In this document: positions 9,040 through 14,999 of the stretch, in pieces
Position numbering within the stretch: position 1 is the stretch's first letter
How the letters are laid out: each line of letters opens with the position of its first letter
From: Pirellulaceae bacterium
GTDB taxonomy: Bacteria; Planctomycetota; Planctomycetia; Pirellulales; Pirellulaceae
NCBI GenBank assembly: GCA_029243025.1
Contig: JAQWSU010000045.1
Span: 558,001 to 622,000 of the forward strand
DNA: 64,000 nucleotides
Reading direction: 5' to 3'
Made by a program: the position numbers and the translations under genes
Notes under the pieces: model-generated
Told to the model about the DNA's origin: nothing
Databases searched by the model: none
The model's input: the letters and a program-made list of their open reading frames with translations, nothing else

Positions 9040-9433
9040 TCAACAGTACTCCAACAGCCAAAAACAATCTGAGAGAGGGACATTACAGTCAAACCGCGTG
9101 GCCCATCCCAAGTGTCCAGTGCAGTCGACCTAGGTTACCGAGGTTCAGGAATCCTATCGATTGGACTGACGAAACTTCTAAGTTTGCAAAACTTAGGCGA
9201 TTATCTTACTAAAACGTTGACTTTTGAAGTGGCGAGGGAATAATCACGTGCTTTCCCGCTCGACCTGCTTGGCCTTCGTCGGCGAGCACCCACCGCGAGT
9301 GATAGGGTCTGATAAGTTGTAACGCTGCATCTAGCTTAGGGTTCGGCCACATCTTCCTTCAGCTAGTGAAAGCGATCTATTTTTTTCGTGTTTTCGGTTC
9401 AGATGAATTGAGTGGAGGTTAAAAGAAGCACAA
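9040..9433. other. Intergenic region between divergent genes, 394 bp
   Basis: Promoters for both the yjbQ-type gene and the small protein gene should lie here. The only clear structure is a perfect 8-bp inverted repeat at 9178-9196. No ORF or RNA gene is recognised. Confidence 0.5.
9178..9196. repeat. Perfect inverted repeat CTAAGTTT-GCA-AAACTTAG
   Basis: An 8-bp perfect dyad with a 3-base centre, in the gap between divergent genes. It could be an operator or a small hairpin. No T-run follows it on either side, so a terminator is less likely. Confidence 0.5.
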
Positions 9434-9664
9434 ATGCACTCTCAGAAGGTTCGGAACGTTTTTGAGGCCATCCTAAAATATGGCCACGATGAAGATTTTG
9501 CACCGCTTAAGTCGGAAGAGTTCGAAGCGACGGAGGCCCCGGCCGGCTCCGCCGCAAAGATCGATATCTTACGTCGACGAGTGGAATCCGGGGACCCCTT
9601 ATGGCACATGGAAGATCGGTCCGACTATAGCGGCTTGACCGGAGCCGTTCGCCCTCGAGAGTAA
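9434..9664 (+). CDS. Small conserved-looking protein, unknown function
   Basis: The 76-residue protein is acidic at the centre, has no signal peptide or membrane segment, and ends 'LTGAVRPRE'. It has a helical N-terminus (RNVFEAILKY) and a segment 'AKIDILRRRVESGDPLWH'. It reads like the short cytosolic hypothetical proteins conserved among Pirellulales, but I do not recognise a named family. A purine-rich stretch (GTGGAGGTTAAAAGAAG) precedes the ATG and a good terminator follows at 9717, which supports a real transcript. Confidence 0.7.
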   Translation: MHSQKVRNVFEAILKYGHDEDFAPLKSEEFEATEAPAGSAAKIDILRRRVESGDPLWHMEDRSDYSGLTGAVRPRE

Positions 9665-9716
9665 ATGGATGCACGCTCTGGGTCAGTACGTCTGCAAGAC
9701 GTCAGATAACGAGAAA

Positions 9717-9754
9717 AACGGGATCCGTATTGAGAAGGACCCCGTTTTTTATTT
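9717..9754 (+). terminator. Rho-independent terminator
   Basis: AACGGGATCC pairs with GGACCCCGTT (one A-C mismatch) around a 10-base loop and is followed directly by a T-run. It ends the transcript of the small gene at 9434-9664. A second short hairpin (ACGTCT-GCA-AGACGT, 9688-9702) lies just before it. Confidence 0.85.
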
Positions 9755-9778
9755 GTCTGCACAAAACTCATCAACCTC

Positions 9779-9952
9779 TTAGGGGTCTCCCGTCGGAGAA
9801 TCCGCCACCGACAACTCCTGCCTCAGGACCGATACGTCGGTTGGAGCTCGAATTCCTATTCGAACTTTGTTTCCGCTCACACGAACCACGGTAATTTCGA
9901 TCGAGTCACCTAACTTGATCTTCTCGCTTTTTTTCCGCGAAAGAACGAGCAT
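9779..9952 (-). CDS. csrA: Carbon storage regulator CsrA
   Basis: This 57-residue RNA-binding protein dimerises and binds GGA motifs in mRNA leaders to control translation. The N-terminus MLVLSRKKSEKIKLGDSIEI and the core 'VVRVSGNKVRIGIRAP' are typical. The open frame extends 13 codons upstream, but the family always begins MLVLSRK, so the ATG at 9952 is chosen; GGAGA lies about 10 bases before it. It follows the 100-residue gene at 10006-10308 by 53 bp and is probably co-transcribed with it. In bacteria with flagella CsrA often controls motility; no flagellar gene is visible here. Confidence 0.95.
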   Translation of the reverse strand: MLVLSRKKSEKIKLGDSIEITVVRVSGNKVRIGIRAPTDVSVLRQELSVADSPTGDP

Positions 9953-10005
9953 TTCACTGTTATCTCCGTGTATCCAAGGGACACCCTTCAATGGGCACCG
10001 CCTCG

Positions 10006-10308
10006 TTAGTTGGTGGATTCCGTCACCTTCAGTGCGGGAGCCTGGGCTAAACGCAGCTTATGGAAGCGTTCGCCAGTTGACCCGTAGAAAAGCACGGTGT
10101 TTCGATCCGTTTCCCAAATCGCCGTGAATTTGACACTCCTCGGGCCGTGCAAGCAGAAGTAGATTCCGCAAGGCTCGGTTCGACGTCGCAACACGCGTTC
10201 AGTCATCGGAAACACGCCTATTTCCAGTTTTTCATGTTCACAAAGCGTTTGATAAATGTAGTCCTTAAGACTCTGAAGATTTAAATCTGGAGGTCGATTC
10301 GCGATCAT
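10006..10308 (-). CDS. Small conserved protein upstream of csrA
   Basis: The 100-residue soluble protein has no signal peptide. It begins 'MIANRPPDLNLQSLKDYIYQ' and contains 'GIYFCLHGPRSVKFTAIWET' and 'NTVLFYGSTGERFHKLRLA', a mixed alpha/beta pattern. I do not recognise a named family. AAAGGAG precedes the ATG. It is directly upstream of csrA on the same strand, so a linked regulatory role is possible, but this rests only on position. Confidence 0.75.
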   Translation of the reverse strand: MIANRPPDLNLQSLKDYIYQTLCEHEKLEIGVFPMTERVLRRRTEPCGIYFCLHGPRSVKFTAIWETDRNTVLFYGSTGERFHKLRLAQAPALKVTESTN

Positions 10309-11472: not shown

Positions 11473-11575
11473 GGCGATCTCCATGAAATAATCTGATACA
11501 CTTCCTGGCCAAGTGCCAAGTTATTTCCGACAATACTCAAGTCCTACAATCTCTGTCCAGTCGAGAACCTCAAAC

Positions 11576-12910
11576 ATGTTAGCGACAGCCACGAATGAAA
11601 AGCTGCTTGCATCGATCCAGAAAAAGACAGCAACGGTTGGAATTGTCGGTCTCGGCTACGTCGGCCTTCCTCTTGTCAATGCCTTCGTCCATTCTGGCTT
11701 TCGCACGATGGGCTTTGATGTTGATGCCTCAAAAGTGGAGAAACTGCGAGCAGGTCAGAGTTACATCAAGCATCTGCCGGGCGAGTGGATTCGCGCCTGC
11801 GTCGACAATGAACAATTCATTCCAACAGCCGACATGAGTCGTCTCGGGGAAGCAGACACATTGCTGATTTGTGTTCCCACTCCGCTGAGTGACAGTCGGG
11901 ATCCGGACCTTTCTTATGTCGAATCGACGACGCGATTCATTGCCAAAACGCTGCGTCGAGGTCAGATTGTAATTTTGGAGAGCACAACTTACCCAGGCAC
12001 CACCCGTGACGTGGTGCTGCCGATCTTACAGGAATCTAACCTTGAGGCCGGAAAGGATTTCTTTCTTGCCTACAGTCCAGAACGCGAAGACCCAGGCAAC
12101 CCAAACTTCTCAGCAACCACGATCCCAAAAGTCGTAGGCGGAATCGATGCTGACAGCCTGAAAATCGCACAGGAGCTGTACTCCAGAGCGGTTGTAAAAA
12201 CCGTCCCGGTCTCGAATTGCGAAATCGCCGAGGCTTGTAAGATACTTGAAAACACCTACCGTTCAGTCAATATCGCCATGGTCAACGAGCTGAAGGTGCT
12301 TTTCACAAGGCTGGACGTGGATATTTGGGAGGTCATCGACGCCGCGAAAACGAAACCATTTGGTTTTCAAGCTTTTTACCCAGGGCCCGGGTTGGGGGGA
12401 CATTGTATTCCGATCGACCCGTTCTACCTCAGTTGGTTGGCACGTAAACATGAACTTTCAACACGATTCATTGAGTTAGCGGGAGAAATCAACGCCTCGA
12501 TGCCAAAACACGTCATCAATCGTGTGGCAGAAGCGTTGAATGCGCGCGCGAAACCCATTCGCGGTAGTAAAATCGCTGTGCTCGGTGTGGCTTACAAGAA
12601 AGACGTCGATGATCCGCGTGAGAGTCCATCGTTCAAATTGATCGAACTACTCGCCGAAGGCGGAGCCCTACTCACCTACAATGACCCTCACATCGCATCA
12701 CTCCCAGCGATGCGTAGTTTCGACGTGCCTGCTTTGGACAGCCAGGCGTTAACCGCAGAATACGTCAGCGCTCAGGATTGCATTCTGATCGCAACAGATC
12801 ATTCCGCCTACGATTACACGTCGATTGTTCAGCATGCCCAACTTGTGGTCGACACTCGAAATGCGACCAAGAATGTGACCCAAGGCCGAGACAAGATCGT
12901 TAAGGCTTAG
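11576..12910 (+). CDS. UDP-N-acetyl-hexosamine 6-dehydrogenase (WbpA type)
   Basis: The 444-residue NAD-dependent enzyme oxidises C6 of a UDP-sugar to a uronic acid in two steps. It has a Rossmann motif VGIVGLGYVGLP near residue 20, 'LICVPTPL', 'LESTTYPGTT', 'YSPEREDPGN', the 'NTYRSVNIAMVNEL' helix, and the catalytic cysteine C277 in 'GGHCIPIDPF'. The motif set is closer to WbpA/UDP-GlcNAc dehydrogenase than to UDP-glucose dehydrogenase. The open frame starts at 11513, but 11576 fits family length. Its last 11 bp overlap the end of the degraded endonuclease V gene. It is one of two such dehydrogenases here, the other being wecC. Confidence 0.88.
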   Translation: MLATATNEKLLASIQKKTATVGIVGLGYVGLPLVNAFVHSGFRTMGFDVDASKVEKLRAGQSYIKHLPGEWIRACVDNEQFIPTADMSRLGEADTLLICVPTPLSDSRDPDLSYVESTTRFIAKTLRRGQIVILESTTYPGTTRDVVLPILQESNLEAGKDFFLAYSPEREDPGNPNFSATTIPKVVGGIDADSLKIAQELYSRAVVKTVPVSNCEIAEACKILENTYRSVNIAMVNELKVLFTRLDVDIWEVIDAAKTKPFGFQAFYPGPGLGGHCIPIDPFYLSWLARKHELSTRFIELAGEINASMPKHVINRVAEALNARAKPIRGSKIAVLGVAYKKDVDDPRESPSFKLIELLAEGGALLTYNDPHIASLPAMRSFDVPALDSQALTAEYVSAQDCILIATDHSAYDYTSIVQHAQLVVDTRNATKNVTQGRDKIVKA

Positions 12911-13583
12911 TCAGGGTACTGTTCTTAGCGGCTTGTCGGCTAATTCGGTCAGCCCAATAGATCGGATCCGGTGTGGGGCAGCGTTCCAAAAACGGTTTGA
13001 TAAGCTGCTGCACTTGCGACACGGACAGGCCAAAACCGGGTGAAATAAAAACGGGCTTCCGATTTCGCGAAGCGGTCAATGCCGCATAGCCTAATTTCTT
13101 TTTGCAAACGCGAATTTCTCGCATCGAACAGACTTCAGCACTTTTCGTATCGACTGATCCGAATAGCAGCTTCTTGGTAACTCCGATAGGTAATATCTGA
13201 GCCACCGCCCCTAACATCGTTGCAATTCCCGCCGTTCGCGGATGTGCAATTCCGCTCCCATCAACAACCCGTACATCGGCTAACCCGTGGTCGTTGCTAA
13301 CCTCATCAATCAACATCAATAACAAAGGCAACTCTCGAAAGGCCAGATCAGAGCTCAGATAAGGATACCGAATTTGCTTGGAAACCGTCCGGGACCACCC
13401 CACCAAGCCCGTATCCGGATCGACCTCGACATCGGTTGCAAATCCCACATCACCGACCTAGGAAATGTCAACTCCGGCAAAAATAGACGGTGGGAGATCC
13501 GACTGACAAGTCGCTCCCTGAATGATCTCCTCTTGGAGAGCACGTCGCTTCCTGAATGGGCCTTTCGAGTCAAAATCATTAAA
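12900..13583 (-). pseudogene. nfi: Endonuclease V (deoxyinosine endonuclease), degraded
   Basis: The translated frame reads '...ALQEEIIQGATCQ', 'PPSIFAGVDIS', then TAG at 13460-13458, then 'VGDVGFATDVEV'. It continues with 'FRELPLLLML', 'VVDGSGIAHPR' and 'PVFISPGFGLS'. This is endonuclease V in order, with the stop replacing the aromatic residue that normally follows GVDIS. No ATG, GTG or TTG occurs in frame between the TAA at 13586 and the TAG. The conserved His of SPGHR is Phe here. A product starting after the stop (ATG or GTG near 13448) would be about 182 residues and lack the metal-binding Asp of GVDIS. I read it as a pseudogene; a sequencing error could explain the stop but not the other changes. 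Confidence 0.8.
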
Positions 13584-13918
13584 TTAGTGCCTGCTTAGAT
13601 CAACACGAGAGTCGTGGATCAGGACACCTTCGCCGGAAAGCTGCTTCTTTTTTTGCTCTGGTTCTCCCGTGATAAACTTACCCCGTCCGCCTGAGACCCG
13701 CACAATCCGGTGGCAATGGCAGAGATTAGTGTGCTCATGGTTAGAAGAACTTTTCCCACCCAACGAGTGGCAACGCGATCTCCCAACGTCTGAGCTAATT
13801 CCCCGTAGGTGGACACGCTTCCAATCGGAATCTGCTCGATAAGCTGCCACAAAACCCGATACAGATCTGTTGGATTCTCCGTACGACGACGTAACTCGAC
13901 AAGACTCAGATTCCTCAT
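13584..13918 (-). pseudogene. O6-alkylguanine-DNA alkyltransferase-like gene, frameshifted
   Basis: From the ATG at 13918 the first part reads '[20 protein letters not shown]' then 'AQTLGDRVATRWVGK', the MGMT DNA-binding helix region. The active-site part 'NHEHTNLCHCHRIVRVSGG' and the family-like end 'GEGVLIHDSRVDLSR' lie in another frame. One missing base between 13740 and 13756, which includes an AAAA run, would join them. The active-site Cys is preserved in CHR, but the usual Pro before it is His. The second half ends at TAA (13586-13584) in exactly the frame that continues into the endonuclease V sequence. Without the shift the protein would be about 110 residues, close to alkyltransferase-like or C-terminal-domain-only forms. 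Confidence 0.8.
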
Positions 13919-14024
13919 TTCGGCTCCAAGTGCTACCTTGGTAACAAGCTATAATTCTGTATTTCCCGCCAGCTCGTGGAAATCGGACTACCTTTCCCTT
14001 AATTCTCTCCAGGAATCGATCGCC

Positions 14025-14999
14025 GTGGCCTTGATTCAACGAGTCCTTGTTACCGGAGGAGCCGGATTTCTCGGATCTCACCTCTGTGACCGCTTGGTTG
14101 GTGAAGGACATGACGTCATTTGCCTGGACAATTTCTTCACGAGCCAAAAGAAAAATGTGAAGCATCTTTTGGACAAACCGAATTTTGAACTGATTCGACA
14201 CGACATCACGATCCCACTCTGGTTAGAAGTCGATCAAATCTACAACTTGGCTTGTCCCGCTGCACCTGGACATTACCAGTACAATGCGATCAAAACAATC
14301 AAAACCTCCGTTTTGGGCGCGATCAATGTTTTGGGGATGGCAAAGCGATGTGACGCGAAGGTACTACAAGCCTCCACGAGCGAAGTCTATGGTGATCCTG
14401 AAATTCACCCTCAACCCGAAAGCTATCGAGGAAACGTCAATCCAATCGGTCCTCGGGCTTGCTACGACGAAGGTAAACGAGCAGCAGAAACCCTCTTCAT
14501 GGATTATCACCGAATGAATCGTGTCGATTCACGCATCGTGAGAATCTTCAACACTTACGGCCCTATGATGCATCCCTTCGATGGTCGAGTAATCTCGAAC
14601 TTCATCAGACAAGCGTTAAATCATGAAGATATCACCATCTTCGGCGATGGCAGTCAGACGCGTTCATTCTGTTACCGAGACGATCTCGTGGATGGCATCA
14701 TTCGTATGATGAATGCGCCAAAGGGATTCACGGGCCCTGTCAACCTTGGCAATCCGGTTGAATACACCATCTTGCAGCTTGCTCAACAGGTGATCAAGCA
14801 GACGAAATCAGAATCAAAACTCGTGCATCGACCACTCCCCACCGATGATCCAACTCGTCGTAGGCCAGATATTAGCTTGGCACGTGAAAAACTTGATTGG
14901 AATCCAACAGTCGCATTGGAAGCCGGATTAGCTAAGACCATTGAATGGTTCAACATGATCGACTTGGCAGCCTATCGCCCACCCACTCCAAATTATTGA
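14025..14999 (+). CDS. uxs: UDP-glucuronate decarboxylase (UDP-xylose synthase)
   Basis: The 324-residue extended SDR converts UDP-glucuronate to UDP-xylose with bound NAD. It has [13 protein letters not shown] near the start, '[20 protein letters not shown]', '[20 protein letters not shown]', the catalytic YDEGK, and '[20 protein letters not shown]', all diagnostic of UXS. The open frame runs 72 codons further upstream, but that part overlaps the alkyltransferase remnant and is not family-like. The GTG at 14025, with AGGA upstream, is the better start. It leads a plus-strand series with the epimerase and a DUF1080 protein. UDP-glucuronate must come from elsewhere or from the dehydrogenase upstream. 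Confidence 0.92.

Follow-up and report, generated by a model that had tools for sequence, protein, structure and literature searches.

A protein that joins an alkyltransferase to endonuclease V (EndoV), AGTendoV of the archaeon Ferroplasma acidarmanus, was reportedly described by Kanugula et al. in 2005. Stand-alone ATL proteins carry tryptophan at the acceptor position, and the N-terminal domain of Ada holds a zinc-bound acceptor cysteine. According to passages of a review (PMC10779285), the Ferroplasma enzyme repairs O6-alkylguanine and has further products of alkylation and deamination among its substrates; moreover, archaeal ATL-EndoV fusions exist, and their EndoV is speculated to work like the NER nuclease XPG. 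The first-pass annotation of the DNA studied here had named a fused enzyme from this archaeon. In the review passages, AGTendoV consists of an alkyltransferase C-domain and EndoV, without the AGT N-terminal domain, as in the planctomycete fusion described below. Here, however, the fusion is bacterial rather than archaeal, and while activity is reported for the Ferroplasma protein, the bacterial ones are described here from their sequences and a structural model. Relatives with the AGTendoV architecture also appear among the Thermoplasmata in our genome scans. We found no report of a bacterial alkyltransferase-EndoV fusion in the open-access literature; automatic protein-database annotations may well exist. 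The architecture is known from archaea, and the bacterial family with an HxHx3CxC loop appears to be a new form of it relative to the open-access literature searched. The dead gene analysed here points to a repair fusion that is widespread in bacteria, although the passages found in the literature, including those of the review cited above, describe it only from archaea.

The window, i.e., the whole stretch of 64,000 nucleotides that was analysed, contains the remains of both domains one after the other on the reverse strand (Table 1). With a probability of roughly nine in ten, we read this locus as the decayed remnant of one gene, whose two-domain DNA-repair product began with an alkyltransferase C-domain (AGT/ATL-like, lacking an AGT N-terminal domain) and ended in EndoV. 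Bearing one frameshift and two stops (TAA and TAG), it lacks the uninterrupted frame of the intact fusions and is a pseudogene of their family rather than a working member. The frame A half shares 57% identity over 60 aa with the intact fusion of the same genus; its codons for VGKVLL run to 13742, where frame B (NHEHT...) picks up with the codon starting at this position. The acceptor loop reads HEHTNLCHCHR (NHEHT, 13742-13728; CHCHR, 13721-13707) and thereby retains each of the four H/C residues that make up the planctomycete motif. The acceptor cysteine is kept before HR (HCHRI), with the usual preceding proline replaced by histidine. Further downstream, the EndoV remainder (13448-12912) matches PF04493 with an E of 4.9e-34 and displays the motifs RELP (13337-13326), VDGSG (13265-13251), and HPR (13244-13236).

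Table 1. Features of the fusion pseudogene and its two neighbours, in window coordinates.
Feature	Position	Strand	Basis
Alkyltransferase-like domain, 5' half	13742..13918	-	Frame A, ATG 13918-13916; PF01035 profile 3-41, E 4.8e-9
Frameshift	13740..13748	-	One base missing near 13742-13748 versus the frame kept in relatives
Alkyltransferase-like domain, 3' half	13587..13742	-	Frame B; PF01035 profile 49-81, E 0.003, below the curated cut-off when this half is scanned alone
In-frame stop TAA at the domain junction	13584..13586	-	Read from the sequence
Linker plus opening strand of EndoV, which bears the first catalytic Asp (GVDIS)	13461..13583	-	Alignment of fusions
Second in-frame stop TAG, inside EndoV	13458..13460	-	Third codon after the first catalytic Asp (GVDIS-stop)
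Remaining EndoV, ending with TAA 12902-12900	12900..13457	-	Retains catalytic Glu, Asp, and His
Convergent neighbour, UDP-glucose/GDP-mannose dehydrogenase gene	11513..12910	+	PF03721/PF00984/PF03720
NAD-dependent epimerase/UDP-glucuronate decarboxylase-like gene, divergent	13809..14999	+	PF01370/PF16363

The first-pass annotation had let the alkyltransferase C-terminus end, after a frameshift, at TAA 13586-13584 and had EndoV follow without a start codon of its own. These coordinates are exact, and the codons, read by eye, agree: TTT (13583-13581) opens the linker, and no ATG, GTG, or TTG occurs before the next stop. At the domain junction, the two remnants are indeed separated by nothing but a stop, as it described, but the gene as a whole has three lesions, among them the previously unreported TAG at 13460-13458. 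The neighbouring genes look intact. The true start of the epimerase gene is probably GTG 14025, as judged from the length of its relative, and the mechanical ORF start overlaps the pseudogene. At the other end, the 3' ends of pseudogene and dehydrogenase gene overlap by 11 bases (12900-12910); in the sister genome they are 5 bases apart.

This sister genome (G001) is the sole other member of the genus among the relatives, and the same sequence occurs in the named collection as MAG SP176 (L021). It carries a 343-codon open frame that holds both domains, 333 aa long from the first ATG (L008/L181). The frame lies at 9106-10107(-), between orthologues of the two genes that flank the locus in the window (75% for the dehydrogenase; 81% identity over 324 aa for the epimerase). 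Gene order is shared with the window over ~16 kb, a stretch in which each of 15 neighbouring genes has one window ORF as its counterpart. In another genus of the same family, the fusion sits between the epimerase orthologue and an orthologue of the 10693-11484 gene (L182 and L183); the dehydrogenase gene has no match at these two loci. A fusion that newly arrived at this locus only was also considered and rejected, given the position shared with L181, L182, and L183.

The intact one-ORF positional orthologue supports the earlier suggestion of a decayed single fusion gene. It likewise contradicts a separate origin of the two parts, according to which an alkyltransferase gene and an EndoV gene were chance neighbours and broke independently. 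In favour of a separate origin, stand-alone EndoV genes do occur in part of the order and in further planctomycete classes. Against it, the TAA is not followed by a start codon, the window copy groups with the fused L008 in the tree (97/97), and the arrangement of the pieces is no accident, since the sister genome has both in this order within one ORF at the corresponding position. We therefore reject chance adjacency of two separate genes, whose likelihood is negligible. In favour of the single-gene reading, all seven intact relatives tested match both PF01035 and PF04493 above the cut-off, with the alkyltransferase first.

In total, 116 distinct fused proteins were gathered as stop-free frames, a procedure by which the absence of stops in them is a matter of selection. 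They include L008/L181 and provide what had been proposed as a check, i.e., intact fused ORFs with a sense codon in place of the TAA. The residues in this column vary across the 116 proteins, and the TAG column holds Tyr in 115 and Phe in one. Neither of two findings named in advance as speaking against a fusion was seen, be it orthologues divided into two genes, each with a start of its own, or a TAA kept in relatives ahead of a start codon. The catalytic Asp, Glu, and Asp as well as the conserved His of EndoV are present in all 117 aligned rows, window included. Their conservation would also fit a full-length protein that is still made by readthrough of the stops or recoding of the frame. 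This, however, needs one frameshift and two readthrough events, no sign of recoding was seen, and a Tyr or Phe stands at the TAG position in every intact relative. We consider readthrough extremely improbable and reject it, together with a conserved TAA; for an ancestor with readthrough, which the first-pass annotation had offered as an alternative, no support was found.

Persistence of the catalytic residues and of the H/C loop could also mean that the gene is intact in the organism and that frameshift and stops are sequencing or assembly errors, all the more as the genome is a draft and the base calls are those of the assembly. Against this stand three lesions of different kinds within ~0.3 kb, amid a window otherwise densely packed with long ORFs and next to 15 genes that each match one ORF. 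Moreover, 59 columns are shared by at least 90% of the other 60 planctomycete fusions, and the window protein departs from 9 of them (TAG counted), compared to a median of 2 and a next highest value of 7 among these 60 rows. Its branch is 1.6-1.7 times as long as that of its sister L008, with 0.94 versus 0.59 in the EndoV tree and 1.41 versus 0.85 in a second tree. A few base-call errors would not give such departures, and we regard errors as a very unlikely explanation of the locus. The window copy is an ordinary pseudogene. Its decay may be recent, since the catalytic EndoV residues and the H/C loop persist.

The largest surviving EndoV ORF (13448-12900) begins downstream of the first catalytic Asp and is therefore not a working enzyme by the known mechanism. 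The window copy is the sole EndoV match in its own draft genome (60 contigs, 95.95% complete). A second, intact alkyltransferase with a PCHRVV loop is present (L002). Because the EndoV ORF starts past this Asp and no other EndoV was found in the genome, the function of the fusion has probably been lost here, with a separate alkyltransferase remaining, and at 95.95% completeness EndoV is likely lost from the species.

The first-pass annotation had held that a bacterial fusion of both domains would be noteworthy. Bacterial fusions do exist, but they are commoner than it assumed, being widespread in Planctomycetota and Bipolaricaulota. A PF04493 match occurs in 17 of the 60 genomes compared, that of the window among them: 7 have a fused protein, 2 a stand-alone one, and 7 short divergent ones, and the remaining match is the window copy. 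In 396 genomes of the order, at least 52 have a single frame over both domains, one of them clipped by a contig end; the other matches listed comprise 13 stand-alone EndoV (G246 ambiguous), one protein divided between contigs, and the window copy with its lesions, as counted by hand from match extents and frame lengths. In three genomes (G389, G133, and G091), the match contains one stop or ends with one. In two of these, the frames (L115 and L124) reach profile positions 324 and 327 of 331, and the stop therefore lies at the C-terminus. In a phylum sample, EndoV occurs in 133 of 392 genomes, and the best 30 loci by score are all stand-alone; many fusions were found among the loci checked in the class Planctomycetia.

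In a scan of named genomes that kept the top 80 of 505 relatives by similarity to a fused query, a ranking that favours fusions, all 80 are single frames spanning both domains (L064 clipped by a contig end). By their titles, these include Planctomycetota, Bipolaricaulota/Acetothermia, Fraserbacteria, two Campylobacterota (Hippea and Campylobacterales), Thermoplasmata, and other archaea. EndoV is present in 60 of 100 Bipolaricaulota and 71 of 145 Thermoplasmatota genomes, mostly in frames of at least 300 codons. Frame length alone can mislead: among 45 loci checked, which were drawn from these two scans and six further genomes, 38 are fused and 7 stand-alone, three of the latter in frames of more than 300 codons. 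No NCBIfam model scored above its cut-off for the four fusions tested.

In a quickly searched EndoV tree, a branch with an SH-aLRT of 94 (unstarred) sets the bacterial fusions apart from the remaining rows, whereas the archaeal fusions are mixed with stand-alone EndoV. This tree comprises 121 of 151 rows; of the fused proteins, it includes 16 of 26 from archaea and 14 of 18 from Bipolaricaulota, and of the planctomycete stand-alone ones, 16 of 32. Five fused proteins (L064, L078, L087, L094, and L172) were left out of the trees, as the anchor pattern did not fit. The two isolated Campylobacterota fusions (L063 and L075, from Hippea and Campylobacterales MAGs) have PCYKIV loops and a long shared branch; transfer or misbinning is possible.

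The acceptor loop of the planctomycete clade has the form H(-8)-x-H(-6)-x3-C(-2)-x-C(0)-H-R, with the acceptor cysteine at position 0. The clade is represented by 65 rows, i.e., 61 planctomycete proteins (window included) plus L024, L028, L064, and L172. All four H/C residues are present in 44 rows, none in 19, and three in 2. The acceptor cysteine is found in 46 rows and replaced in 19 by Ser (7), Ala (5), Thr (3), Trp (3: L166, L168, and L176), or Val (1). Entropy over the 44 full-motif rows is circular for the four positions by which these rows were chosen, and the 46 rows selected by the acceptor cysteine alone were used instead. Here, H(-8) and C(-2) occur in 46/46, H(-6) in 44, H(+1) in 44, and R(+2) in 46, compared to a commonest residue in at most 14 rows at each of -7, -5, -4, and -3. 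Pro(-1) is present in 23 of these 46 rows versus 35 of the 37 Cys-bearing rows of other fusions.

Outside the planctomycete clade, none of 52 fusions has the full H/C set, and C(-2) occurs in none of the 37 with an acceptor cysteine. Neither HxH nor CxC is found in the loops of 21 stand-alone alkyltransferases, i.e., that of the own genome plus 20 higher-scoring ones from the order, of which 20 read PCHR and one PWHR. The archaeal fusions aligned here likewise differ in that they are without HxHx3CxC and mostly have N....PC(H/Y/F)(R/K) loops. A single Bipolaricaulota protein (L043) shows H, H, and C(-2) in the alignment but no acceptor cysteine, which we take as a chance alignment across a gap. 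In L042, L036, and L039 (Thermoguttaceae by title), the loop carries an insert of ~8 to 23 residues; in L042 it lies between HxH and CxC, with the motif kept.

Parsimony requires at least 4 changes for C(0), 4 for C(-2), and 5 for HxH. Only one independent pair for joint loss falls on well-supported branches, and 4 are obtained if every branch is used, which is less than a sign test requires. In the single well-supported pair, C(-2) changed with C(0) in every pairing and HxH in ~9/10. Against a strict loss as a block, L036 and L039 retain CxC without the second His. Ligand-type residues at fixed spacing, separated by variable ones and retained or missing almost as one unit, suggest a putative metal site in the loop that includes the acceptor cysteine. 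We tentatively propose, with the odds somewhat against the proposal as a whole, that the H-x-H-x3-C-x-C site of planctomycete fusions would hold a metal, yielding either a metal-activated thiolate or a lesion sensor locked by the metal, from which damage would pass to the tethered endonuclease, and that its block loss in several lineages would have left ATL-EndoV proteins. A metal-activated thiolate, if so, could be analogous to the Ada N-domain but independently evolved. Analogy is meant here only in that a thiolate acceptor doubles as metal ligand; the fold is unrelated, and the putative planctomycete site, unlike that of Ada, would sit in the O6-alkylguanine transferase loop. If the loop binds metal, this would be, to our knowledge, new chemistry for the enzyme family.

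The AlphaFold model of an intact fusion (L023), built with an alignment of 51 rows from the 80 named loci, reaches a pLDDT of 95.6 and a pTM of 0.91. Its C-domain resembles stand-alone EndoV (Nfi) of T. maritima (2w35; Z 32.6, 219 residues, 1.5 A), E. coli (4xpu; Z 30.5), and human (4nsp; Z 31.2), with conserved catalytic residues; in contrast to these, the EndoV of the fusion is joined to an N-terminal lesion-recognition domain. The motif residues, counted by hand, are H53, H55, C59, and C61. Among the 50 entries listed, below which AGT entries may follow, the folds nearest to the N-domain are the stand-alone ATL proteins Atl1 of S. pombe (3gx4; Z 14.5, 100 residues, 2.1 A) and that of V. parahaemolyticus (2kif; Z 14.3), which are also small and without an AGT N-terminal domain. 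Unlike the fusions, they have no EndoV, and most planctomycete fusions keep Cys at the acceptor position. The archaeal ATL-EndoV fusions covered in the review passages (PMC10779285) resemble some planctomycete members in the loss of the acceptor cysteine, including to Trp, but the planctomycete proteins are bacterial and have Ser, Ala, Thr, or Val as further replacements.

Judged by its two families, the intact bacterial fusion would start repair of both alkylation and deamination damage from one polypeptide. The alkyltransferase-like domain would scan DNA and flip O6-alkylguanine-type bases into its pocket. Where the acceptor cysteine is present, it may take off the alkyl group from O6-alkylguanine; where it is lost, as in 19 of 65 rows of the planctomycete clade, the domain could only bind or mark the lesion, like ATL proteins. 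The tethered EndoV would incise 3' of deaminated or otherwise unsuited or distorted bases. Since the bacterial fusions span the transition from AGT to ATL with intact nuclease residues, the idea of EndoV as built-in incision partner of an ATL-like sensor becomes testable.

Several genomes of the same bacterial family (G008, G009, G017, G019, G024, G025, and G027) encode divergent EndoV-like proteins in frames of 170-236 codons with weak PF04493 matches (L013-L020), which possibly form a separate branch. Two EndoV-like matches with internal TGA codons are found in G009. Beyond the fusion itself, the long frames of L024, L031, L117, and L084 yielded no further Pfam domain. In G793, the fusion lies within a 734-codon open frame (L024/L186), the first ~400 residues of which match no Pfam family, and L115 (G389) looks alike. 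The G793 record bears the name 'Candidatus Nealsonbacteria' bin.20, which is at odds with its 9.1 Mb and with the place of its protein among Pirellulales fusions.
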